This document shows, in pieces, positions 5,940 to 33,756 of a stretch of DNA of 64,000 nucleotides (its first letter is position 1; every line of letters begins with the position of its first letter). The DNA is from Minwuiaceae bacterium. Lineage in GTDB: Bacteria; Pseudomonadota; Alphaproteobacteria; Minwuiales; Minwuiaceae. The stretch spans positions 1-64,000 of the forward strand of contig JANQEE010000027.1 in NCBI GenBank assembly GCA_028278525.1, written 5' to 3'. The translations under genes and the position numbers were made by a program. The notes beneath the pieces were generated by a model. That model saw only the letters and a list, made by a program, of their open reading frames with translations. It searched no databases and was not told the origin of the DNA.

Positions 5940-6809
5940 ATGACCGATTTCGTCGACGTTCTTCACCTGCCGTATGGCGCCCCCGAGACGGACTACCGGC
6001 CGGGCCCCGACCTTGAGCGTATGCGCGCGGGGGCAAGCGAGGCCGAGCGCCTGATCGGCGCCGCCGTCGCCGACATTGTCGACGGGACAATCGAGGCGGA
6101 CGAGAGCGACATCGTGGCGAAGATCGAACGGCGGCGGGCGGAACTGGCCGCGTCTTCCGCTCCTATCGCCTATATGGATTTCGGCGCATCGACCCGGGAC
6201 GCCAGCGAAACGCCCGAGGAAATGTATCGCGGCAAGCCGGTGGAGCGGACCGTCGGCAACCTTGAACAGCGAACCAGCAAGCGCCACCGCGCGGCGTTGC
6301 TGCTGATGAAACTGCTGCGGGCGTTCCGGCCCACGCACGGGCTGGAGCTTGGCACCTGTCTCGGTATTTCCGCCGCGTACCAGGGCGCGGCGCTGGCGCT
6401 GAACAACCGGGGCCGGCTGATAACGCTGGAAGGCGCCGAGCCGGTCGCGGCCCTTGCCCGGGAAACCCTGTCCGGCCTGGGTATCGACAGAGTGGGCATC
6501 ACCATCGGCCGGTTTCAGGATACTTTGCAGCACGTGCTGAACGGCAACGAGCCGTTCGATTATGCCTATATCGACGGGCACCACGACGGCGCGGCGACCG
6601 TCGGCTATTTCGAACAGATCAAACCGCATTTGTCCGCTAAAGCCTTGCTGGTGTTCGACGATATCCGCTGGTCGGCGAGCATGACCGAAGCCTGGGAACG
6701 GATTATCGGCGATCCCCTGGTCGCCGTCTCGGCGGACCTGGTGGATATGGGAGTCTGCTACCTTGACGGCGCCTCGAACGGCGCCGTGCGATATAGTATG
6801 GCGCCTTAA
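5940..6809 (+). CDS. Class I SAM-dependent methyltransferase
   Basis: A 289-aa protein with a Rossmann methyltransferase core starting near residue 130: the glycine-rich motif I is GLELGTCLGISAAYQ, a motif II-type acidic residue lies in ITLEGAEP, and DYAYIDGHHDGAATVGYF resembles the O-methyltransferase/Methyltransf_24 substrate region. The N-terminal 120 residues are helical and charged, without a recognised domain. It lies 63 bp after the TPR-sulfotransferase and 4 bp before the next methyltransferase-like gene, so co-transcription is likely. The substrate is not evident; modification of a glycan or small molecule together with sulfation would fit the context (inference). Confidence 0.75.
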   Translation: MTDFVDVLHLPYGAPETDYRPGPDLERMRAGASEAERLIGAAVADIVDGTIEADESDIVAKIERRRAELAASSAPIAYMDFGASTRDASETPEEMYRGKPVERTVGNLEQRTSKRHRAALLLMKLLRAFRPTHGLELGTCLGISAAYQGAALALNNRGRLITLEGAEPVAALARETLSGLGIDRVGITIGRFQDTLQHVLNGNEPFDYAYIDGHHDGAATVGYFEQIKPHLSAKALLVFDDIRWSASMTEAWERIIGDPLVAVSADLVDMGVCYLDGASNGAVRYSMAP

Positions 6810-6813
6810 CCCA

Positions 6814-16927: not shown

Positions 16928-17096
16928 ACGCCCAATGGCTGAACAGTATCCAATGACGCACCGAAAGGAACGGCCTGATCGGCCCGGCGCTTATACTCAC
17001 TGACGTCAAAGTTGTGTAGTCCTTATGGACCTTTCACGCAAACGTTGCGACGAGTAGACTTCCTCTCGGGATGATTCGAGGGGTTGAGAGTGAACC

Positions 17097-17675
17097 ATGC
17101 GGTATAGTCGTGGCTTTGTTGTAGCCTTCCTGCTTACGGTCGTTAGCTTCGGGTCGGCTAGCGCCTCAGTCATTACGATCCGGGTGGAAGCGCCACCAGG
17201 ACCGATATTTGGTGCGCTGTACCGGGTGGAAACGAAGACGACCACGACCTTGGGAAGGAACTTCAGTGGGTTTTCGTTCGAGGGATTGGATCTGGACGGC
17301 GACAAGCTGCTGGAAACCAATGAGGTCACATCATTCAGCGGCACAACTGTTGATCCCGACCTCAGCGGCGACACCCTATTCGATGTACTGGAGCAGGTAA
17401 CGTTCGATTTGGATACGGTCGAATTCGTTGTCCAGATTGTTTTCGCGAACAGTGTAAGCGGAAATGTGCTTGGATTCGCTGCCGCCGCTACTGGCCAGTT
17501 TGATGAGGCGGCAATGCCGCAACTCACGGTGATACCCCAACCGGTTGCGGAGGTTCCAGCGCCTGCAGCGTTAGGATTGATTGCGCTGGGCTTAGCAACC
17601 CTCGGCTGGACTCGAAGAGGGCGGCAGTTTGATATCCGATCGCGACGTTCGGGCGACCGCCAAGCCGCACATTGA
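17097..17675 (+). CDS. Exported protein with VPLPA/PEP-CTERM-type sorting signal
   Basis: 192 aa. Signal peptide at residues 1-24 (FVVAFLLTVVSFGSASAS), a secreted domain rich in Thr, Asp and Val, then a CTERM tail: VPAPAALGLIALGLATLGWTRR, that is, VPxPA, a transmembrane helix and a basic cluster, the signature of exosortase/rhombosortase-class substrates in Gram-negative bacteria. The secreted domain is not recognised. Oddly, about 17 residues continue after the Arg cluster, whereas these signals normally end within a few residues. The gene lies immediately left of the tRNA-Thr integration site. Confidence 0.75.
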   Translation: MRYSRGFVVAFLLTVVSFGSASASVITIRVEAPPGPIFGALYRVETKTTTTLGRNFSGFSFEGLDLDGDKLLETNEVTSFSGTTVDPDLSGDTLFDVLEQVTFDLDTVEFVVQIVFANSVSGNVLGFAAAATGQFDEAAMPQLTVIPQPVAEVPAPAALGLIALGLATLGWTRRGRQFDIRSRRSGDRQAAH

Positions 17676-17721: not shown

Positions 17722-17808
<87 letters not shown>

Positions 17809-17958: not shown

Positions 17959-19326
17959 GTGCCGAGGGTGCGTTTGACCGCCGCAGCAGTTGCCAAACTG
18001 AAGACGCCTAAACCGGGGGTTGGCACCGAGTACTTCGACGCCAGCTTCCCAGGCCTGTCGCTGCGCATCACGCCGAGGGGAGCCAAGACCTTCGCGCTGA
18101 TGACCAGGATCAACGGCCGCCAGAAGCGCATCACGCTCGGCAGGTGGCCCGCGCTCGGTCTCGCTGACGCCAGGAAGAAGGCCACCGACCTGCTCGACCA
18201 GATCGACCGGGGTGAGGACCCGACCAGAAACGATGACGACGACAGGGACCTGGTCGAAAACGTCGTCGCGGAGTGGATCGAGCGCGACCAGTCCAAGAAC
18301 AAAGGAGTCGACGGCGTCAGGCGCCTGTTCGACAAGGACGTACTGCCCCGGTGGCGAGGCAGGCTGATCCACGACATCAAGCGCAGGGACGTGATCGACG
18401 TCATCGACGCGATCGTCGACCGGGGCGCGGTGATCCACGCCAGAAGAATGCACGCACACCTTCATCGCATGTTTCGCTGGTCCGTTGGCCGGGGCATCAT
18501 CGACGTGAACCCGATGGCGGACCTGCCCAAGCCGGGTCGTGAAAACCCGCGGGACCGGGTACTCGACGACGACGAACTTGCCAGGGTGTGGCACGCCAGC
18601 CTGAGAATGGGCTATCCGTTCGGTCCTCAGATCAGACTTCTGATCCTCACCGGCGCGCGGCTTACGGAGATCGCCGCCTGCACCAGGGACGAACTCGACA
18701 CCGACCGGGGCATGATCGCGCTGGACGGCGACCGGACCAAGAACGGTGAACCCCGGATCATCCCGTTGTCGCAGCAGGCTCTGGACGTGCTGGACCCGCT
18801 GCCCGTCGTGCTGACAGGGTCGCGCCGTAAGCAGAGGCCGAGCGACTACGTCTTCACAACGACGGGGGACACCCACGCGGCCGTAGGCTTCAAGGCGCGC
18901 AGGCGCCTCGACGCGCTGGTCGCTGGCGTGGATGCCGGTGGAGCAGACCTCGAAGAAGACCAGCCCATCAACTACTGGCGGACGCACGACCTCAGGCGCA
19001 CCGTTGCGACAGGCCTACAGAGGCTCGGCGTCAGGCTGGAGGTCACCGAGGCCGTGCTCGGCCACACGTCGGGATCGAAGTCCGGCATCGTTGGTGTCTA
19101 CCAGCGCCACGACTGGGCGCACGAGAAGTGCGCGGCCCTCGACGCGTGGTGCCGGTACGTCGGTCTAATCGTTACCCCGGCTGGAGCAGAGGTCGCGCGG
19201 ATGCTCGACGCCGGGCCGGTCGAGAGGGTCGAGTTTCAGGCCGCGATCATGGCCGGGGGATCGGTGTGGAACACCTATCTGAGCCGGCGTTTTCCAAGAA
19301 GTCATGCGGCCCTTTTGGCTTCATAG
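17959..19326 (+). CDS. Tyrosine site-specific integrase
   Basis: 455 aa. The N-terminal DUF4102-type domain (DASFPGLSLRITPRGAKTF..., ITLGRWPALGLADARKKA) is followed by a core-binding domain and a catalytic domain with Arg (LTGARLTEIAA), H-x-x-R (WRTHDLRRT), the second His (LGHTSG) and the nucleophile Tyr (GVYQRHDW). This is the P4/CP4-57-like class that inserts at tRNA genes. GTG 17959 follows AGAAGGG with 8-bp spacing. It is directed away from attL into the element. It would catalyse integration into and excision from the tRNA-Thr locus. Confidence 0.95.
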   Translation: MPRVRLTAAAVAKLKTPKPGVGTEYFDASFPGLSLRITPRGAKTFALMTRINGRQKRITLGRWPALGLADARKKATDLLDQIDRGEDPTRNDDDDRDLVENVVAEWIERDQSKNKGVDGVRRLFDKDVLPRWRGRLIHDIKRRDVIDVIDAIVDRGAVIHARRMHAHLHRMFRWSVGRGIIDVNPMADLPKPGRENPRDRVLDDDELARVWHASLRMGYPFGPQIRLLILTGARLTEIAACTRDELDTDRGMIALDGDRTKNGEPRIIPLSQQALDVLDPLPVVLTGSRRKQRPSDYVFTTTGDTHAAVGFKARRRLDALVAGVDAGGADLEEDQPINYWRTHDLRRTVATGLQRLGVRLEVTEAVLGHTSGSKSGIVGVYQRHDWAHEKCAALDAWCRYVGLIVTPAGAEVARMLDAGPVERVEFQAAIMAGGSVWNTYLSRRFPRSHAALLAS

Positions 19327-19948: not shown

Positions 19949-20263
19949 ATGATAAACAAGGCTCTCAGGCTGATTCGGGTGTATCACGACCTTAATCAGG
20001 CTGATGCCGCCGCACGTGTTGGGTTGTCGAAATCCTACATCTCAGAGATTGAGTCAGGGAACAAGAAGGTCACACTTGAAGTTCTGGAGAAGTATTCCAA
20101 CGCCTTCGATATCCCAGTGTCGTCGCTGATGCTGTTTGCTGAAAAGGCCGGCGAAGCTAGCTTCGCTGACGATACGCGCGTGTACGTCGCGGACAAAGCT
20201 TTGAAGATGCTCGACTGGGTCGCGATGATCTCTTCGGACAAAGGCTCAAATACCCATGGTTAA
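19949..20263 (+). CDS. XRE/Cro-C1-type DNA-binding protein of the retron
   Basis: 104 aa. The helix-turn-helix at about residues 5-60 (LNQADAAARVGLSKSYISEIESG) is of the XRE family, followed by a 40-aa tail. The reverse transcriptase start overlaps its stop by 8 bp (ATGGTTAA), so the two are translationally coupled. HTH-bearing retrons form a recognised class (type VI in the published classification, from memory). It may act as antitoxin or sensor that binds the reverse-transcribed DNA or the promoter at 19427 (inference). An inverted repeat CTTCA/TGAAG at 19928-19944 spans its ribosome site. Confidence 0.85.
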   Translation: MINKALRLIRVYHDLNQADAAARVGLSKSYISEIESGNKKVTLEVLEKYSNAFDIPVSSLMLFAEKAGEASFADDTRVYVADKALKMLDWVAMISSDKGSNTHG

Positions 20264-21182
20264 ACGGCGGGCGTATCCCAGAAATCAGTCTCGACTTTAC
20301 AAAATCACGAGTCCCGCACAACTCGCCGCGAGGCTTCTTATGAAGCCCGAGCAGCTGGAGCAACTTCTGGAAGCAGACGACAACTACATTCGTTGGACAG
20401 ACAAAGAGACGGGCCGGCCAATTCAGCGGCCGAAACCGTTGCCCGAGCGCTTGCACAAGCGTGTCGGTGTTCTTCTTTCGCGCATTGAAACGCCGGACTT
20501 TTTGCACTCGGCAATTAGGGGGCGTTCGTACATCTCTAATGCGTCCCAACACGATGCGAACCAACCAACCGTCAAGATCGATATTCGCAAGTTCTACCCG
20601 TCGACCCGCGCGCAGGCGGTGTTTCACTTTTTCCGCGATAGAATGCTGTGTGATGGGGATGTTGCCGGAATTCTCGCGAGACTACTAACGGTGGATGGCC
20701 ATCTCGCAACCGGCAGTAGCGCGAGCCCGATCCTCTCTTATTTCGCCTACGAAGACATGTTTGCTGAGATCGAAGCACTCGCCGTTAGCCGCGGCATTGC
20801 TATGACCTGCTATGTCGACGATATGGTCTTCACCGGACCCCACGCAACGCGTCGCTTAATCTACGACGTCATTCGAATAGTTCGCCGTTATCGGCTATGG
20901 GGGCACAAAACGAAAGTATTCAAACCTGGTCAGCCCAAGGTGATTACCGGCATAGCCGTAACGCGCTTAGGGAGTCGTCTTCCAAATAAGCGTCAGAAGG
21001 TCATCAATGACGAGCTGTTATCTCTCGACGGATTGGCGAATGACAAAGACCGATTGCGGGTCATGCGACGTCTCATGGGCCGGCTTTACGAAGCCGCGCA
21101 AATCGATCCGTTGTGGTTGCCGAAAGCTGATGCGCTGGCGGCTCAAAAGCGCAGTTTGGAGAGGCGTGTCCTAAAGAACTAG
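20256..21182 (+). CDS. Retron reverse transcriptase
   Basis: 308 aa, the usual retron RT size. The motifs are all present: NASQH (retron NAxxH), catalytic Asp in KIDIRKFYPST, the GHLATGSSASPILSYFAY region equivalent to the QG-SP loop, the active-site CYVDDMVFTG (YxDD), the thumb HKTKVF, and KVITGIAVT, the (V/I)TG motif used in template RNA recognition. There is no maturase or endonuclease domain, which argues against a group II intron or DGR. It would copy the adjacent structured RNA into branched msDNA. It is convergent with the serine recombinase gene 21 bp away. Confidence 0.93.
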   Translation: MVKRRAYPRNQSRLYKITSPAQLAARLLMKPEQLEQLLEADDNYIRWTDKETGRPIQRPKPLPERLHKRVGVLLSRIETPDFLHSAIRGRSYISNASQHDANQPTVKIDIRKFYPSTRAQAVFHFFRDRMLCDGDVAGILARLLTVDGHLATGSSASPILSYFAYEDMFAEIEALAVSRGIAMTCYVDDMVFTGPHATRRLIYDVIRIVRRYRLWGHKTKVFKPGQPKVITGIAVTRLGSRLPNKRQKVINDELLSLDGLANDKDRLRVMRRLMGRLYEAAQIDPLWLPKADALAAQKRSLERRVLKN

Positions 21183-21203: not shown

Positions 21204-21869
21204 TCAAGACTCAGAAGCGAGTTTGACTAAACCAGCGACCTTATGATTTCCGCCGAGCGCCCTTCTTATTGTAGGCGCGCTGGTCCGGTACTTGGTTGCC
21301 AGCGCGCGAAGGCTCATGCCCCGCTCCCTGTCGATGCGAATGCCCCGGACCTGTAGGTCGTCGAGCGCCGGGGGTCTGCCCAGCCGCTTACCATTCGCCC
21401 GCGCCTTCGCGAGGCCGGCCCTCACCCGCTCCTGGATCATGCACCGCTCGAACTCGCTGAACACGCCGAGCATCTGAAACATGGCGCGTCCCGACGGAGT
21501 CGACGTGTCGAGCCCCTGCTGGTGAAGGTACAGGTCGACCCCGGCAGACTGGATGTCCTGCAGGAAGGCCAGCAGGTCCTGAAGGCTCCTGCCCAGTCGG
21601 TCGACGGACCAAGCAGCGACAACGTCGAACTCGCGCCGGGTTGCGTCACGCAAAAGTCCGTCGAACGCACGCCTGCCTGAGCGGCCCACCGAGCCGCTTA
21701 CGCCGTTGTCGGTGTATTCGCCTACCACCTGCCACCCGGCCCTGTCAGCGACCTCCCTGAGCGCCGTCAGCTGCACGTCAGGGTCCTGATGCCCGTTCGA
21801 CGTGCTGACCCTGGCATAGAGGGCCGCGCGGCGCTCTGGTTTTGCTCGCTTGCGCCCTGCTCTGCTCAT
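21204..21869 (-). CDS. Serine recombinase (resolvase/invertase family)
   Basis: 221 aa from ATG 21869, which follows AGAAGGA with 8-bp spacing (an in-frame start at 21905 is less likely). The catalytic domain begins RRAALYARVSTSNGHQDPDVQL with the nucleophilic Ser in ARVST, then AAWSVDRLGRSLQDLL and the E-helix region SEFERCMIQERVRAGLAKA; the C-terminal helix-turn-helix is LRALATKYRTSAPTIRRAL. It is a small Hin/Tn3-resolvase-type enzyme that would resolve or invert DNA at palindromic sites; a perfect palindrome lies 33-51 bp upstream of the start. It is a second recombinase in addition to the integrase. Confidence 0.92.
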   Translation of the reverse strand: MSRAGRKRAKPERRAALYARVSTSNGHQDPDVQLTALREVADRAGWQVVGEYTDNGVSGSVGRSGRRAFDGLLRDATRREFDVVAAWSVDRLGRSLQDLLAFLQDIQSAGVDLYLHQQGLDTSTPSGRAMFQMLGVFSEFERCMIQERVRAGLAKARANGKRLGRPPALDDLQVRGIRIDRERGMSLRALATKYRTSAPTIRRALGGNHKVAGLVKLASES

Positions 21870-21901
21870 CGGTCCATCCTTCTTCTCTATCTTCTTGCAG
21901 A

Positions 21902-21920
21902 TCATATGCAGTACATATGA
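21902..21920. promoter_or_regulatory. Perfect palindrome upstream of serine recombinase
   Basis: TCATATG-CAGTA-CATATGA: 7-bp arms and a 5-bp spacer, 33 bp upstream of the recombinase ATG. It is a candidate crossover (res) half-site pair or an operator for autoregulation. Confidence 0.55.
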
Positions 21921-22571: not shown

Positions 22572-23849
22572 GTGACAATTCGGAATATTTCGCAAGACCA
22601 TCTGTCTGAGGTGCTAAGAGAGCACCTCACACCGTCGGCGCACATAACAACTCCGGAACGCTTGTTTGGACGAGAAGGTAAGCTCCGTCAGATAGGCCGG
22701 GCTTTCAATTCGGTTGGTCGTCATGTCTTCATTTATGGTGACCGAGGAGTTGGAAAGTCATCACTTGCGCTTACTGCGGCACATATGCATCACGGAAGCG
22801 GCAGTGATCCAATATACGTCCCGTGCAGCGAGACCTCCACATTTGGCGACATCATCCAAGCTGTCGGCAATGCGTCATTTGCAGTGACGGAGCGTTTCGA
22901 GCATCCAGGTAGCCCCAGTTCGCTTAACATGACGATTATGGGGAGTGGAGGTGGACTTTCGCGTGGTTCGCGTCCGCGCCCGGAGATAGAAAAACCTACC
23001 GACCTCAACAGCGCTTTCGATGTCATCCGTTACGTGGCCTCCCGACTTCAAGGCAACATCGTCGTCGTTATCGATGAGTATGAACGTATAACCGAAGAGG
23101 CCGACAAAACTATCTTTGCGGAGTTCATGAGAAGCGTACCTGACTTCGATGGCCGGATGAAGTTTGTCTTTTGCGGGATTGGATCGACGGTCGATGAACT
23201 ACTAGGGTCGCACACGTCGGTTGGTCGACGCCTAGAAACCGTTGAATTGGAGCGCCTACACCACGATCACCTGTGGCGGATCATCACCGCTGTTTCTGAG
23301 AAGTTGGACGTGGAAATCGACAGGGAAATGCTTATTAGGATTGGCATTACAAGTGATGGTTTTCCACATTATGTCCATCTTATTGGAGAGTCCTTGTTCT
23401 GGAAGATGTTTGACGACAATGAAGAGGTTCGGAGAGCCGGCGCACGCCACTACAAAGCGGGCGTGAATGGGGCGCTCACGCGAACAGAGGCAATTCTCCG
23501 AACAGCTTATTTCAAAGCCACTCAGAAAACTAAAAACACAGAGGATTACGAAGTCGCCCTATGGTCGTTGGCCGACCATCACAACCTCCGTCGACAGGTT
23601 ACAGAGATCTACAACAAGTCTTACCTGCCAATTTCGCAACAGCTTGGAAAGAGGACTGGGGAACGCCTGACCAAATCTCAGTTTAACAATCGTTTGTTAA
23701 GGCTGAGGGAAGAATCCCACGATCGGGTCCTGGTGGGTCATGGTTCTGGATGGTTTTCATTTCGTGAGAATGTTCTGAGAGGTTATGTACGTCTCAACGC
23801 CGAGAACAGAGGCATAACGCTGGCCAGAGACCACTATATAACCACATAG
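22572..23849 (+). CDS. AAA/STAND-type ATPase, Orc1/Cdc6-like
   Basis: 425 aa with LFGREGKLRQIGRAFNS (linker typical of the Orc/STAND group), Walker A FIYGDRGVGKSSLA, Walker B NIVVVIDEYERI, a sensor-1-like KFVFCGIGSTV and a C-terminal winged-helix-like region (about residues 310-410). The GTG start at 22572 follows GAGG. Base composition is lower in GC than the flanking chromosome. Proteins of this kind act in replication, plasmid maintenance or phage defence; nothing here decides which, though a defence or regulatory role fits island cargo. The 87-aa gene at 23955 follows in the same direction. Confidence 0.75.
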   Translation: MTIRNISQDHLSEVLREHLTPSAHITTPERLFGREGKLRQIGRAFNSVGRHVFIYGDRGVGKSSLALTAAHMHHGSGSDPIYVPCSETSTFGDIIQAVGNASFAVTERFEHPGSPSSLNMTIMGSGGGLSRGSRPRPEIEKPTDLNSAFDVIRYVASRLQGNIVVVIDEYERITEEADKTIFAEFMRSVPDFDGRMKFVFCGIGSTVDELLGSHTSVGRRLETVELERLHHDHLWRIITAVSEKLDVEIDREMLIRIGITSDGFPHYVHLIGESLFWKMFDDNEEVRRAGARHYKAGVNGALTRTEAILRTAYFKATQKTKNTEDYEVALWSLADHHNLRRQVTEIYNKSYLPISQQLGKRTGERLTKSQFNNRLLRLREESHDRVLVGHGSGWFSFRENVLRGYVRLNAENRGITLARDHYITT

Positions 23850-27058: not shown

Positions 27059-27937
27059 CTAACCAAAGACTGCTTTTGCCGCTGTACCTGGATTCTGCTC
27101 CATCGCCCGCGCGTAGGCCGTGTAGTAGTCGCAACCTTCGTCGCGCATGATGCCCTTGGCGACGGTCTCTAGTTCGACTTCTGCTCTCGACTTGTTGATC
27201 GCGACCAAGCAGGTGTTGTCCGCGTATCGCTTGGTGATCTGGAAGCGCTGGTTGTCGCCGGGGTTGGTTGCGGCGGCCTGGGCCTCGCGGTGAAGTTTGT
27301 CTGCCAGATTGGCAACCTTCCTGTACTCGTCCCCGGCTTCGGACCGTTCGAAGCCCAGTCGTGTGGCGGCCTTGTGGTACGGCTCGCCTTCGGCTCTGTG
27401 CTTCTCGATCACATCGTCTAAAAGGGTGCCGGCCTCGGTGTGCTGTTTGTGTACGTCTGCCGGGGTGGTCTGTTTGGTCATGGTCTTGGTCTCCTCGATC
27501 TCGGCCAGGAGCGCTTTCTCCTTGGCGAAAGTACGTTCCAGGGTGGCGAGCTTCACCGCGTCGTCGCCACGACGCTGAGCGTCTATGCTCATCTGCGTAA
27601 GGGCGTCGCGTGCCTCTCCTCGCTCCCGCGCCCTGTTCGCGGCACGTACCTGTCCAGGGGTGGCTGACACGGCGGCTGCTCGGTGGGCGTGCCCCTCAGC
27701 CTCGCCAATCATGACCCTCCCAGTTCTCATGTCCATCACCCAGGGGTGCTGGTGGCCGTCGCTTCCACCGGGGGTCGACAGACCCTCGAACGATGGGTTT
27801 GGGGTACTCCTGTCGCGGGGATCTTCTCCGATCAGCAGCAGGTGGGTGTGTCCGTCAGTGGCAGTGGTAAGGATCGCCTGCTTGTTGAACGTCGTCGGTC
27901 CCTTGGCGTCGCGCTTCATCATCGTGATGCTGGTCAT
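27059..27937 (-). CDS. Phage-like protein with repeated G-H-x-H motifs
   Basis: 292 aa. The N-terminal part has three GHxH-type motifs (TDGHTHLLL, SDGHQHPWV, AEGHAHRAA), as seen in phage structural or maturation-associated proteins; a helical middle with Glu/Lys-rich coiled coil follows, and a C-terminus (YYTAYARAMEQNPGTAAKAV) of a type frequent in phage head-region proteins. It overlaps the upstream gene by 4 bp at the end of a five-gene minus-strand operon starting with a terminase-small-like gene. The function is not established. Confidence 0.55.
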   Translation of the reverse strand: MTSITMMKRDAKGPTTFNKQAILTTATDGHTHLLLIGEDPRDRSTPNPSFEGLSTPGGSDGHQHPWVMDMRTGRVMIGEAEGHAHRAAAVSATPGQVRAANRARERGEARDALTQMSIDAQRRGDDAVKLATLERTFAKEKALLAEIEETKTMTKQTTPADVHKQHTEAGTLLDDVIEKHRAEGEPYHKAATRLGFERSEAGDEYRKVANLADKLHREAQAAATNPGDNQRFQITKRYADNTCLVAINKSRAEVELETVAKGIMRDEGCDYYTAYARAMEQNPGTAAKAVFG

Positions 27938-28509
27938 GCTGCCCTCTCCTTCTCGACGCCGAGAGCGTCGGCAAGCGGCTTGATCTTGGTTCGGTTGAAG
28001 GGAGCGGGAACGCCAATCAGCTTGCAGAGCGAGCCGGCCCCGTGCCAGAAGGCGTTGCGAAGCGCGTACTGGCGCGCTCGTAGGGTGCTGCCGGGTGTGC
28101 CCTCCAGCTTCGCGATCTCGCTGTCCATCTTGGTGAGTTCGTCCGTCTGCTGGCCGAGCTGTCTAATCGTCTGGTCGATCTCGCCGGCCAGCGTCGCGCG
28201 CTTCTTACGCACTTGACCAGCACGCGCAAACCGAAGATCGGTCTCGTGATCCTCGAGGTCGCGCACCGCGCGATCGCGCTCGCCGGTCAGCGTCATGACG
28301 GCGTACTCGATCTCCTTGAACTGGCTCTTGGCCGTGGCGATCTGCTCACGAAGCTCCCTCGTCCGCTCGTCGTCGTCCTCGACGATTGCCGCGTTTAGCT
28401 GCTCGGTGAGTACGGGTATCGACTCCCTGACGGCTTGACGCCGCTCAGCGAAGGTCTCGATCCTGTCGGTCAGGTCGCTGATGGTCTTCCGAAGTCTGTC
28501 TCTCGACAA
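27934..28509 (-). CDS. Coiled-coil protein of the phage-like operon
   Basis: 191 aa, starting at a TTG with AGGAGG 6 bp upstream. Heptad-rich over about residues 1-140 (LRKTISDLTDRIETFAERR..., LREQIATAKSQFKEIEYAV), then a basic C-terminus. It resembles scaffold- or spacer-type phage proteins in form only. The next gene starts within its stop (4-bp overlap). Confidence 0.6.
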   Translation of the reverse strand: MSRDRLRKTISDLTDRIETFAERRQAVRESIPVLTEQLNAAIVEDDDERTRELREQIATAKSQFKEIEYAVMTLTGERDRAVRDLEDHETDLRFARAGQVRKKRATLAGEIDQTIRQLGQQTDELTKMDSEIAKLEGTPGSTLRARQYALRNAFWHGAGSLCKLIGVPAPFNRTKIKPLADALGVEKERAA

Positions 28510-28519
28510 CGCTGTCCTC

Positions 28520-29002
28520 CTAAGATGCCTGAAACGCTGGGTAGGGATAGCTGGGCAGGGGAACCGGGGTCGGTTGGTCGTCGGGTCGCTCGATGTCGCC
28601 GGCCAGGACCACCTCGCATGCGATCATTCTGTCGGCCCCCTCGCAGCACGCCCTGTGAACGTACAGAGCGCGCAGCACGTCGAGCCGGCGTTCGTCGATC
28701 ACGAGGGCGCCTGAGCCGGGTTCGTGGACCGAGCGGAAGGCGTTCGCGACCGGATCGCGAAGGAAGCCCATCATGGCCAGCATCACCTGCTCGTCGCACC
28801 TCGTGCCCCGCGCTATGCCGATGATGTCTTCCGGGGTGTAGGCACTGGCCTCGCGCTCCTGGCGCTCGCACAGGATCATCGCGATCAGGAAGGTGCGCTC
28901 GTCGATGGTGTTGGCGAACTTGAGCGCGATCTCGTCGTCAACGATCTTGTGGTACAGGAGAACGTCGAGGAGTGACAGAAGGTCCTCTCGCTTCAGGTAC
29001 AT
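28520..29002 (-). CDS. Hypothetical protein of the phage-like operon
   Basis: About 160 aa, beginning MYLKREDLLSLLDVLLYHK. GGAGG 4 bp upstream favours the ATG at 29002 over the adjacent ATG at 29005. It is helical and acidic, with a Pro-rich C-terminal tail. The start overlaps the upstream stop (TGATG), so translation is coupled. No family recognised. Confidence 0.6.
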   Translation of the reverse strand: MYLKREDLLSLLDVLLYHKIVDDEIALKFANTIDERTFLIAMILCERQEREASAYTPEDIIGIARGTRCDEQVMLAMMGFLRDPVANAFRSVHEPGSGALVIDERRLDVLRALYVHRACCEGADRMIACEVVLAGDIERPDDQPTPVPLPSYPYPAFQAS

Positions 29003-29283
29003 CATTCCTCCATGAAGCGTATGAACCGGTCGATCACACCGCATCGGTCACCGCCGTCGTCGCGCAGCTTGTAGAGCGCCCGCATCTTCTTCGAGGTGAT
29101 CACCGGGGCGAACTGAGCGTACGAACCGGGGAACGCGTCTTCGATCATCTCGCCTACGGAGTCCACCGCCACGTCAAAGAGCGCCTCCAGCAACGCCGGT
29201 TCGCTATCAAGGTTGTCATGGTGTTCGCGAAGAAGGTCCAACGCCGCCGAAAGCCTTCTTAGGTCCGGTCTGTTTTCCACCAC
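29002..29283 (-). CDS. Hypothetical 93-aa protein of the phage-like operon
   Basis: 93 aa, acidic and helical (RLSAALDLLREHHDNLDSEP, LFDVAVDSVGEMIEDAF). It sits 9 bp after the terminase-small-like gene and overlaps the following gene, so it belongs to the same mRNA. No recognised domain. Confidence 0.6.
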   Translation of the reverse strand: MVENRPDLRRLSAALDLLREHHDNLDSEPALLEALFDVAVDSVGEMIEDAFPGSYAQFAPVITSKKMRALYKLRDDGGDRCGVIDRFIRFMEE

Positions 29284-29292
29284 TCGATACTC

Positions 29293-29913
29293 CTAGTTCT
29301 CGATCCTGGAGGGCAGTTCTCGTGTCCCTGATGACCGGGGGCCTGGGCTACCTATCGTGGGGGACATGTCTGCCGGTCTACCGGCAAGGCGCTCAGCGCC
29401 GATCTGCATGATCCGCTCCTGCACCTCAAGAGCGCCCTTCAGGGCGGCCCGCTCGTCTTTGGTTAGGATCTCGAAGATCGCGTGGACCTTCTTCTCGTCG
29501 ATAGCGCTGTGATTGAGCTGGCCGTCGAGCTTCATCTGCTGGCGCTCGCTCCACCGCTCCGGGGCCAGGGCAGCTGCGTAGCGAAGCAGGAGCCGGTTGT
29601 CGTAGCGCAGTTCCTTGGCGACCACCTGACCGTTCGAGACTACGGGGCGCTCGGTGGGCGTCATTGCGCGCCGGCTAATCTCGGCCTCGATCTTTCCTAG
29701 GGCGCGCTCTTCTGCCTCGTCCCATCTGGCCGCGAACTCCGGGTCGTTGGCGCGCCGCCTTCTGAAGCCGCTCAGTCCCCCGGTGCGATGCTTGGACCAG
29801 GGGGTGGCCGCTCTGGCCGCGGCGGTTACACTGCCCGTCTCTTGCAGCGTTTCGAGGAAGACCTCGATGCGCTGGTCGGTGATTTCGTTCCAGGTGTGAT
29901 CGAGCTTGTCCAT
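29293..29913 (-). CDS. Terminase-small-subunit-like protein
   Basis: 206 aa. The N-terminal helix-turn-helix (VFLETLQETGSVTAAARAA..., then GLSGFRRRRANDPEFAARWDEAEERA) is the pattern of small terminase subunits that bind phage DNA; EAEISRRA..., LRYDNRLLLRYAAALAPERW continues the family resemblance. No large subunit gene accompanies it. In satellites such as PICIs a solitary small terminase redirects helper packaging to satellite DNA (known biology), which would explain its presence here (inference). First gene of the minus-strand operon. Confidence 0.65.
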   Translation of the reverse strand: MDKLDHTWNEITDQRIEVFLETLQETGSVTAAARAATPWSKHRTGGLSGFRRRRANDPEFAARWDEAEERALGKIEAEISRRAMTPTERPVVSNGQVVAKELRYDNRLLLRYAAALAPERWSERQQMKLDGQLNHSAIDEKKVHAIFEILTKDERAALKGALEVQERIMQIGAERLAGRPADMSPTIGSPGPRSSGTRELPSRIEN

Positions 29914-30024
29914 GCAGAAATTACTTCAGTCGGAGTAGCTTGACGCAATAATACACAGTAAGTACGACGTATTAAATGGAGATAAGCTGGTGCTTCTTAC
30001 GTGATCAAAAAATCCCGAAGCTGG

Positions 30025-30126
30025 TGTAACAAAAACCCCTGCAAGTTCCGGGCTATGCTGGCCGCAGTTTGCCGGGGGATCGATGCTGACCGTGGTGGTG
30101 TTTCAAAAACAGGTGGTTTTGTTACA
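30025..30126. repeat. Inverted repeat TGTAACAAAA(A)CC
   Basis: TGTAACAAAAACC at 30025-30037 and GGTTTTGTTACA at 30115-30126 are complementary apart from one extra A, separated by 77 bp, in the non-coding interval between the terminase-like operon and the primase. Candidate regulatory site pair for the divergent or late operon. Confidence 0.4.
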
Positions 30127-30421
30127 GCGTTCGATGATCCGGGATCGATTGACCGAGGCGTGTTTGAGAGCTTGCAGCGCGCGCCCGGCTGGTCAGGGTC
30201 GACAACTGCCGGCTCGATCCTCGAGGCCGCTTGTTGGGTCTGTATGTCGGCCTGATGTGCCTTCTGGCCGGGGTGTGTTGGTCGACCGGGTTTGCGCGTG
30301 GATGGCTTCGTCGCCAAGGATGCTTACGCAGGCGCGGCCTTCCCAATCAACGCGATCAAATCGTTCCCCTATCGGATGCCAAATTGGCAGTGAATCACAC
30401 TGCGACGACACTTAGTTCGTT

Positions 30422-30676
30422 TAGTCCAAGCCGGTCGCAATTGAACTACGACTTGGACTATGAATTTTGCAAACGGTATCAACTATTTATATGAATTTAG
30501 TTCAGGTAGTTCTACTAAAAGCTACAAAAAATAATCAAACCGCCAAACTGACCGGTTCAACGCTGTGGCGAATTACACGCATTCCAAAAAAGTCTGCTGC
30601 CAACTTGGACTACTTGGACTAACTGAAAAACTACCAGTAAAAACAGCGCTTAAGCCCAGCAAGACCTTAGTCCAAG
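30422..30676. repeat. Five iterons CTTGGACTA: candidate replication origin
   Basis: The 9-mer CTTGGACTA or its complement TAGTCCAAG occurs at 30422-30430 (-), 30452-30460 (+), 30604-30612 (+), 30613-30621 (+, directly adjacent) and 30668-30676 (-), within an AT-rich tract just downstream of the primase-helicase stop. In SaPI-type satellites the origin lies downstream of the rep/primase gene and is made of iterons. The whole interval 29,914-30,770 has no ORF with a credible start; it appears to be origin and regulatory DNA. Confidence 0.6.
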
Positions 30677-30770
30677 TTGTTTGACCCGGTTGCGCTAAGC
30701 ATCGAAACTCCGGGCCAAACCACTATGAGGTGAAGGCTTCGTCGAACTGCCGTGCTTGTCGAGACCCGGA

Positions 30771-33020
30771 TCAGAACGGCGTAGAAGGGCCGGTTTCGCC
30801 GTCGACTCCCAGGTTCCAATCGGTCAGCGTGTCGTCGAACTCGACCTCCAGGAAACGATCGCAGAAAGCGCTTCTGGCCTCCACCAGGCTCGGCATCAGC
30901 CAAGCGTTCCGCTGCCCGAGCGGCGGCAGCGTCGGCCGTGGATGGACCTTCTCGGCTCCGATCTTCTTGATCAGCTTGGCCAGCATCTGGTCCGAAACGC
31001 TCTTCAGCTGCGGGTTGCTACGTCTGGCCTCGTCGAATAGGCCCGGATAGCGCTTGCCGCCGTATTGGGCGTCCTTCGACAGACATACACGGTCGGGCCA
31101 GTCCGTCGCGCAAGGCAACTCGCCCACGTCCAGCAGGTCCATCAGCCACGCGACCTTCGGGTCGAGTGTTAGCGCCTGTTGCGCGCGCAGCGCATCCGTC
31201 CGCGGAACACGCCTGACGTTAAATGCCGAGAGGTCAACGTTCAGAAGATGGTTGAGGAGATTTGCGTCGCCCCCGCCGCGCATGCCCTGGTCCATCGCGC
31301 CGAAGTAGTCGAAGTCGTTGCGCTTGATATCCGACACATCGAGCACGAAGAATCGCCGCGCGTTGATGTTGGCCGGTACGACCCATTCGGAGTTCGACGC
31401 CATCATAAGGTGGACGTAGCGGCGGACCATCTTCGCCGGCTGGTACTTGCCCTCGCTGAGAACCTCGGCTTCGGTTATCAGGCCCTTAAGCACGGCCTCG
31501 TGCTTCTTATTGCCCGCATACAATGCCTCGTCGGCGAAGCACAGCACGCAGGCGTTCAGGTGCCCGGTAAATCGGCCGACCAAGTGCTCAGGCTCCGTCA
31601 GATGCATGAAGTGGTCGCCCATGATCCTTCCCAGCGGCGCGACGGCCATGCCCTTTCCGGCACCCTCAGGCCCACGCATAACAACGGCGACCCCGGGCAT
31701 GTGGTCGGGATGCTGAACCATGTGCGCCAGCCACCTTTCCAGATAATGGAAGTGCTCCTCGTTGCCGGCGCAGATGATTTCCCTCAGGTGATCGAGATAT
31801 CTGAGGTGGTGATCGCCTGGGCATGGATCGATGCCGAAGCCGCGCCACGTGTTGAGGCACCAATTCGGCGCTCCCCCCGGATAGAAGCCCATCGTTTCGT
31901 ATAGTTGCTTGCCCGGATGTTCGTTCCAGGCCTTGAAGATTGGTGTCCCAGCGGGCGGGTTCTTAGTTGGATTGACCACGACCTTCTCGTGCGCGTGCGC
32001 CTTGATCAGGTCATCCAGCTTGTGCTTGACGTAGCGCCGCTTCTTCAACGCGCCGTCGTATCGATCCTCGACGATACGGAAGCCGCTCCCCTCGGCGTCG
32101 ACAACACACGCGAATCGGTCGTTGATCCTGTCAACCCAATCAGGCGTGGCTGATCGACCGGCGGACCCTGCCTCGTACTTTAAGACCCGCTCGACGATGC
32201 CGTTCAGTTCGCCGTCGTCGAGCGGACCCTCAGCAAAGCTCGCGTGAACGTCGGAATTCTTCCTGTTGGCCTCCTGCAGGGCCGCACGAATGGCGCTCTC
32301 GGGCATGCCGTAGGACCGCATCGAGCAGCCGACCTTGAACAGAGCGTCGTTCCGGCCCGCCGCCTTAACGCGCGCCGACGACTTCGACGGTTCGTCTAGG
32401 TACTTGGCGAGTTCATTCCACGCCTTCGGACTGCTTCCAACTTCGTCTACATCACTAACGGCCTGTCCAGTGACTGCGAAGAACCTGCCCGATACGTAGG
32501 CCTCGATGCCTGGAGACTTAGTCTTGTCGCTGCCAGGGATCGGTATCGGATCGCCCTCCATTTTTCGGCTGTTTGTCCTGAGCGACTTCGGGCAGCCATG
32601 AGCGAAGATTTTGAACCCGGTGCCACTCGGCGACACCTCTGCGTAGCTGTTGAATAGGATCAGCCACTTATGGACCCAGTCGGCGGCCTTGCCGGTAACC
32701 GGGTCCCGGCACCCATCGAGATCGACGCCGCCGAGGTCGTCGTCATTCGTGAAGACGAAACCAATCCCGCCGTCAGCAGGGACTCGCTCGACGGCTTGCT
32801 GGTAAGTCAGGAACTGATCGGGCCGATCGATCCTCTGGTTCGGTATCTTCTTGCCGTCCGCGTCTCGCCACGTGACCCAGCGATTGATCGACTTGAGGTC
32901 GTTGGGAACGGCTGCGAAGCGCCGGTCCGTGCCCTGTTTATTAAAACGCGACTTTTCTCCTATGTTGTTCGCGTTCTGATTGCCGTGGTTGGGGTTCTCG
33001 TTTATACTCAAATCGCTCAT
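30771..33020 (-). CDS. Primase-polymerase/helicase replication protein
   Basis: About 749 aa from ATG 33020 (GAGGA 5-6 bp upstream; an in-frame start at 33059 is less likely). The N-terminal PrimPol-like domain includes NRWVTWRD, GGIGFVFTNDDDLGGVDLDG and SPSGTGFKIFAHG; the C-terminal superfamily-3/D5-like helicase has Walker A VVMRGPEGAGKGMAV (about residue 450), Walker B-like ACVLCFADEALYAG and the sensor MMASNSEWVVPANINARRFFV. It would prime and unwind at the iteron cluster downstream. This is the replication module typical of satellites and integrative elements. Confidence 0.88.
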   Translation of the reverse strand: MSDLSINENPNHGNQNANNIGEKSRFNKQGTDRRFAAVPNDLKSINRWVTWRDADGKKIPNQRIDRPDQFLTYQQAVERVPADGGIGFVFTNDDDLGGVDLDGCRDPVTGKAADWVHKWLILFNSYAEVSPSGTGFKIFAHGCPKSLRTNSRKMEGDPIPIPGSDKTKSPGIEAYVSGRFFAVTGQAVSDVDEVGSSPKAWNELAKYLDEPSKSSARVKAAGRNDALFKVGCSMRSYGMPESAIRAALQEANRKNSDVHASFAEGPLDDGELNGIVERVLKYEAGSAGRSATPDWVDRINDRFACVVDAEGSGFRIVEDRYDGALKKRRYVKHKLDDLIKAHAHEKVVVNPTKNPPAGTPIFKAWNEHPGKQLYETMGFYPGGAPNWCLNTWRGFGIDPCPGDHHLRYLDHLREIICAGNEEHFHYLERWLAHMVQHPDHMPGVAVVMRGPEGAGKGMAVAPLGRIMGDHFMHLTEPEHLVGRFTGHLNACVLCFADEALYAGNKKHEAVLKGLITEAEVLSEGKYQPAKMVRRYVHLMMASNSEWVVPANINARRFFVLDVSDIKRNDFDYFGAMDQGMRGGGDANLLNHLLNVDLSAFNVRRVPRTDALRAQQALTLDPKVAWLMDLLDVGELPCATDWPDRVCLSKDAQYGGKRYPGLFDEARRSNPQLKSVSDQMLAKLIKKIGAEKVHPRPTLPPLGQRNAWLMPSLVEARSAFCDRFLEVEFDDTLTDWNLGVDGETGPSTPF

Positions 33021-33602
33021 CGCGGTCCTCTCTAGCCGGAGCGCAGGGCGCTCCATCAAGCGTTCATCCCCGGCCAGCGCAATTTGGGTTTGCCGCGCTG
33101 GCCGCTCCCTTCAACTCAACTTCTTCGCTTCTTCTTCAGAGAGGTGCCGAGCGGGCGTGTTGTCCGCGCTCGGACTTGCAATCGACTGGCCCGTAGGCGA
33201 CGGTCGTTCGGCACTCTTTGTCTGCGATGGCTGATTCTTAGTGGGGTGTCGAATCACCCGTCGCAAGTGCTTTGGCAATTATTGCCCAAAAGACGCGTCA
33301 GTTAAATCAGAAGTTCAAGAAACCTTCACTGTCATTTAACTTCAACTAGAAAGACAAATATTTGTTGCCGTAAATCTATCCTGGGTATATATTGTCTACA
33401 TCCTCAATGCCGCTCATCGCAAGTGCTACATTCGAGGTTCGAGGCCCCTACATCGGCCCTTCCCGATTGGGGGCCTCATCTCGTTTGGGTCAGCCCGGCA
33501 CCGACACGCCCTACCAACGAATTCTAGCGGCCCCACCATGTGGTTCCCCGGCTCGATCCAGCCATCGGCCACGCGCCCCAGACACACAAAGGACATACGA
33601 CC
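33021..33602. other. Leader/regulatory region of the replication gene
   Basis: This 580-bp stretch has no credible gene. It contains an inverted repeat AGTTAAAT (33300-33307) / ATTTAACT (33334-33341) and a repeated CGCAAGTGCT (near 33263 and 33418) in AT-rich DNA. These look like operator or promoter elements controlling the leftward primase transcript, but no consensus promoter can be fixed by eye. Confidence 0.4.

Positions 33603-33669: not shown

Positions 33670-33756
<87 letters not shown>

Follow-up and report, generated by a model that had tools for sequence, protein, structure and literature searches.

Gene content of the island and its primase-helicase

The window, i.e., the whole 64-kb stretch of Minwuiaceae DNA analyzed here, harbors a ~16-kb island delimited by perfect 87-bp repeats, each with a complete tRNA-Thr(CGT) gene (Table 1). 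The duplicated ends comprise the entire tRNA gene plus 12 bp upstream, hence a full tRNA-Thr gene is kept at both island ends. An integrase together with a specific attachment site, as used for defining PICIs, can be deduced from the tyrosine integrase and the identical ends including tRNA-Thr, and by its gene content the island appears phage-satellite-like. Beyond the repeat array described below, the terS-like gene is found beside four adjacent ORFs (27059–29283, minus strand) without clear family matches, which may represent satellite or head-related genes. In addition, the island carries a type VI retron-like pair at 19949–21182 (plus strand), in which HTH_VI (PADLOC E 1.7e-34) overlaps the start of RT_VI (E 4.2e-75) and which is likely anti-phage defence cargo, as well as a serine recombinase (21204–21905, minus strand) and an AAA/STAND-like ATPase (22572–23849, plus strand). 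A serine recombinase is also present in some small plasmids carrying the same primase family.

The primase-helicase consists of a putative PrimPol domain (aa ~58–234), a PriCT_1 domain (231–296), a DUF5906 SF3-type helicase (461–568; Pfam E 1.8e-16) and a C-terminal tail extending to residue 762. Its N-terminal PrimPol part matches the NrS-1 PrimPol 7rr4 weakly (phmmer E 1.7e-7), and pLDDT of the predicted structure is below 60 in this part. In the alignment with NrS-1, the DLD and SPSG stretches are retained, and a lysine follows SPSG where NrS-1 has the histidine of its LHV stretch, so that the island PrimPol may be altered. The C-terminal half is predicted to have the DUF5906/SF3-type ring of NrS-1 fold, as the modeled structure aligns with the NrS-1 C-terminal ring 6k9c over 372 residues (VIA Z 27.2, rmsd 4.7). 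Alignment with the SaPI5 primase-helicase covers 316 residues (Z 19.7, rmsd 8.2).

Table 1. Features of the island and of the repeat array downstream of the primase-helicase gene (window coordinates; set A, primase side of the spacer; set B, opposite side).
Position	Strand	Feature	Database match
17722..17808	-	Left end repeat of 87 bp, perfect match to 33670-33756; whole tRNA-Thr(CGT) at 17722-17796	
17959..19326	+	Tyrosine integrase adjoining the left end	phrog_1, E 7.6e-56
29293..29913	-	Terminase small subunit-like protein (terS), satellite-type packaging gene	phrog_4044, E 1.6e-20; Sf6_terminase below cut-off
30413..30421	-	Degenerate iteron TAGTTCGTT, phased by 9 bp with the iteron at 30422	
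30422..30430	-	Exact iteron	
30440..30448	+	Degenerate iteron ATTGAACTA	
30452..30460	+	Exact iteron	
30461..30497		Stretch richest in AT, GC 24%, within set B	
30498..30515	-	Set B inner tandem, degenerate (TAGTTCAGG-TAGTTCTAC), 9-bp phase, opposed to set A	
30516..30603		88-bp spacer between the inner tandems, GC 42%; candidate melting region	
30604..30621	+	Set A inner tandem: two exact iterons, head to tail, 9-bp phase	
30668..30676	-	Exact iteron TAGTCCAAG/CTTGGACTA, outer copy of set A, nearest to the primase	
30771..33059	-	Primase-helicase, proposed initiator, 762 aa	
33670..33756	-	Right end repeat, 87 bp; tRNA-Thr(CGT) at 33670-33744	

A 9-bp repeat array follows the primase-helicase gene

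For the DNA next to the primase-helicase gene, an earlier note made from the window had described five copies of a 9-mer within 255 bp, three on the plus and two on the minus strand and two of them in tandem. Scanning the window retrieved precisely these copies of CTTGGACTA, starting at 30422 (minus), 30452 (plus), 30604 (plus), 30613 (plus) and 30668 (minus), and none in the rest of the 64 kb outside 30422–30676, with a mean of only 0.13 copies per window expected from shuffles. Five is correct for exact copies, whereas the total had been undercounted: the core TAGTYC/GRACTA, occurring 33 times in the window, is found nine times at 30413–30673, and the full array at 30413–30676 is made up of nine repeats, five exact and four degenerate. 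The claim that five copies in 255 bp are far above chance is corroborated by 100 dinucleotide shuffles of the window, where no 9-mer of any sequence reached this number and the maximum of four copies was seen once. Genome-wide, CTTGGACTA occurs eight times in 5.95 Mb, five times in the array and as singletons on three other contigs. An equally dense occurrence elsewhere, which according to the earlier note would speak against an origin, was looked for in both the window and the genome and did not occur. The region had also been rightly called AT-rich, its GC content (30422–30676) being 40.8% and thus below the 56.8% of the island and the 60.6% of the primase ORF, and rightly placed downstream of the primase-helicase stop, past which the array begins after 94 bp, within the 857 bp of intergenic DNA preceding terS.

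Viewed from the primase side, an outer copy is followed by the tandem at 30621–30604, an 88-bp spacer, an opposed tandem at 30515–30498 and four further copies. Core pairs spaced by exactly 9 bp are present at 30413/30422, 30498/30507 and 30607/30616. Hence, two inner tandem pairs, each with 9-bp phasing, oppose each other across the spacer; the set B side of this arrangement relies on degenerate copies, and the exact copies alone show no inversion across the spacer. The GC minimum falls within set B and not within the central spacer (Table 1). Folding of 30410–30690 is somewhat better than that of shuffled sequences (z −2.6), as expected from inverted repeats. A single long stem-loop was not found by folding this stretch, which gives a stem-loop origin in the style of pRN1 no clear support.

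Repeat clusters in relatives of the primase-helicase

Single-sequence scans of contigs from genomes and viruses did not reveal a close relative of the primase, and among all relatives found none was near enough for aligning the origin DNA itself. Relatives from plasmids, phages and genomes were gathered by tblastn, by genome search and by an alignment-based scan, and were scored for the best 9-mer in the 600 bp past the primase stop, counting 1 for an exact copy and 0.5 for one with a single mismatch; loci scoring at least 4 were taken as positive. This scoring is blind to orientation and spacing. Among the loci with enough sequence, 49 of 174 were positive, corresponding to 47 of 157 distinct primase loci after deduplication (window included), with 33 of 72 from genomes and 4 of 67 from viral contigs. 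Upstream of the gene or within it, clusters with a score of at least 4 were found at none of the 174 loci, nor in shuffles, while five regions located 1.2–1.8 kb downstream of the primase in the same set reached this score. When genome loci were divided into 600-bp bins, the bin from 0 to 600 bp was positive in 34 of 77 loci versus 23 of 1981 other bins. Such a cluster was not found in 63 of the 67 viral contigs, and since most large-phage relatives (M6-like) are among those without one, the primase gene is not always paired with a cluster.

Each family possesses its own 9-mer past the primase stop; a Roseomonas plasmid, for instance, has ACCCTGGAC, Citrobacter plasmids have ACCAAGTAC and ACCTGTAAA, and AACCCCTAC occurs in a genome from the window's own family. 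A primase-side cluster with the layout described below is also carried by small circular plasmids, and in the 9.7-kb Roseomonas plasmid the primase is the sole replication gene recognised by Pfam. The Vibrio vulnificus plasmid pMP1 bears a second cluster of eight copies (GTACAGTTA) at 6572–6811, apart from its primase-side cluster at 2181–2452.

The layout is shared to a large extent. In 41 of 46 positives, orientation is inverted across a spacer (binomial p 4e-8), which has a median length of 94.5 bp and in 43 of the 46 a GC content lower than that of the ORF. For neighbouring copies spaced by 8–9 bp, orientation agrees in 97 of 99 cases, and weak copies are common among the relatives, too. 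With its degenerate copies counted, the window array fits this layout, having opposed 9-bp tandems separated by an 88-bp spacer.

The survey also bears on which part of the protein might recognize the repeats. Of 25 relatives shorter than 620 aa, which cannot accommodate a full PrimPol region, 18 are positive, suggesting that the helicase/C-terminal half and not PrimPol reads the repeats. By region, iteron similarity correlates with primase identity most strongly in the C-terminal part (rho 0.20, not attained in any of 200 permutations) and less so with identity of the helicase core (rho 0.08, 19 of 200 permutations), in both cases with ancestry not controlled, and the correlation for the C-terminal part is therefore only suggestive.

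The iteron cluster of phage NrS-1

In the genome of Nitratiruptor phage NrS-1 (AB746912.1), 11 copies of AAGTGTAAC are located at 17062–17377, directly past the stop of gene 28 at 17051. The template start sequence of NrS-1 polymerase, biochemically mapped to the 8-nt TTTGGTTA, has been suggested to possibly fix the start of genome replication (PMC8718748). This sequence is present only once in the NrS-1 genome, at 17198, at the junction of two iterons within the cluster, and GTG as the second reported start motif is contained in AAGTGTAAC. The published start sequence applies to a single-stranded template. A resemblance between CTTGGACTA and TTTGGTTA (shared TTGG..TA) was dropped as evidence, because the relatives vary freely in their iterons, of which TTTGGTTA and GTG are not a general part.

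A predicted replication origin and its alternatives

Position, layout and comparison with primase relatives all agree with an origin of the SaPI/PICI type, and from these sequence comparisons the likely SaPI-like origin proposed in the earlier note gains support. Hence, 30413–30676 is very probably the replication origin of the tRNA-Thr-integrated, phage-satellite-like island, with the adjacent primase-helicase acting as initiator.

Short repeated and partly inverted sites in the 857-bp stretch between genes that precedes terS could also be operators binding a transcription regulator of the terS-side operon or of the primase, and at least one HTH protein is encoded by the island. However, although the elements differ widely in their genes, the cluster goes with the 3′ end of the primase gene and is lacking at its 5′ end, and the single weak promoter-like site in 29900–30900 (at 29948–29975) is outside the array, making an operator function very unlikely. 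Centromeres of some plasmids are iteron-like arrays, and the island possesses a resolvase and a terS-like gene. The repeats might therefore be considered as a centromere-like partition site, a recombination site or a packaging site, to which a partition protein, the serine recombinase or TerS would bind. The array lies near the primase gene, however, which it also follows in relatives, and not near the resolvase, 9 kb off, or the island ends; moreover, a ParA/ParB-type protein was not recognised among the scanned island proteins. We regard this explanation as highly improbable.

A reading that overlaps with that of a functional origin and differs only in present activity is an origin relic, inactivated by the degenerate half and by motif changes. 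The inner tandem of set B has indeed decayed (TAGTTCAGG, TAGTTCTAC), and the PrimPol domain has lysine in place of the LHV histidine of NrS-1. On the other hand, five copies are identical, the 762-aa primase ORF is intact and weak copies are common in relatives as well, so that we consider a relic unlikely.

For the preferred reading as an origin, the following mechanism can be proposed. The C-terminal half of the initiator, i.e., SF3-type ring helicase and tail, would bind the 9-bp iterons as double-stranded DNA, and two rings might assemble head to head on the inner tandems, as these are opposed across 88 bp. The AT-rich DNA between and beside the tandems would then melt, with each ring enclosing one strand, and the N-terminal PrimPol and PriCT domains could start synthesis on the exposed strand, resulting in bidirectional replication of the excised circle. 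Steps comparable to these have been established for SaPI/PICI origins (PMC6092414). As iterons differ among diverged elements, an initiator would act mainly on the replicon that encodes it.

Relation to known replication systems

In SaPIs and Gram-negative PICIs, origins lie 3′ of rep and have an AT-rich region with one set of iterons on either side, and a cloned origin of this kind replicates (PMC6092414). The island resembles these elements in the position directly 3′ of the primase/helicase gene and in element-specific iterons (PMC6092414, PMC7581432) as well as in being integrase-bearing with a terS-like gene. In contrast to SaPIs and PICIs, its initiator is of the NrS-1-like PrimPol/DUF5906 type, and the layout occurs here in small plasmids, in other islands and in phage NrS-1 as well. 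The SCCmec helicase Cch2, too, uses its C-terminal domain to bind direct repeats that lie shortly past its own gene (PMC7581432), as proposed for the island initiator, but there are only three repeats (AAGTG), a separate primase and a different element, and what is established for Cch2 is repeat binding. pRN1 ORF904 is also a PrimPol-helicase initiator with an origin 3′ of its gene, which is, however, a 100-nt stem-loop and not an iteron array (PMC4234260). NrS-1 polymerase shares with the island protein the C-terminal fold and the predicted domain order of PrimPol, helix-bundle/PriCT and SF3-type ring (PMC8718748, PMC7102993), and its gene is directly followed by an iteron cluster, too. Unlike the island, NrS-1 is a full phage, and its 11 iterons of AAGTGTAAC are partly in 12-bp phase.

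Accordingly, the origin layout is already known from PICIs and the window array is a further case. What appears to be new in the literature searched is its association with initiators of the NrS-1-like PrimPol/DUF5906 group, both in plasmids and islands and in NrS-1 itself, which suggests that PICIs are not the only elements with a PICI origin layout, against a published statement (PMC6092414). It is conceivable, albeit more doubtful than the origin assignment itself, that one kind of protein in islands, small plasmids and some phages reads private iterons by its C-terminal ring/tail while PrimPol starts DNA de novo at iteron junctions, with TTTGGTTA of NrS-1 being one such junction, and that the PICI layout is general to SF3/PrimPol initiators and not a hallmark of PICIs.

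Besides a predicted origin for a satellite-like island, the comparison provides a rule for finding origins in PrimPol/DUF5906 replicons, namely opposed tandem 9-mers within 0–300 bp past the primase stop. For NrS-1, a biochemically mapped start sequence of a phage PrimPol is now tied to an iteron array. In this phage, the cluster is overlain by NRS1_29, an ORF annotated as hypothetical at 17055–17456, which is probably not a gene.
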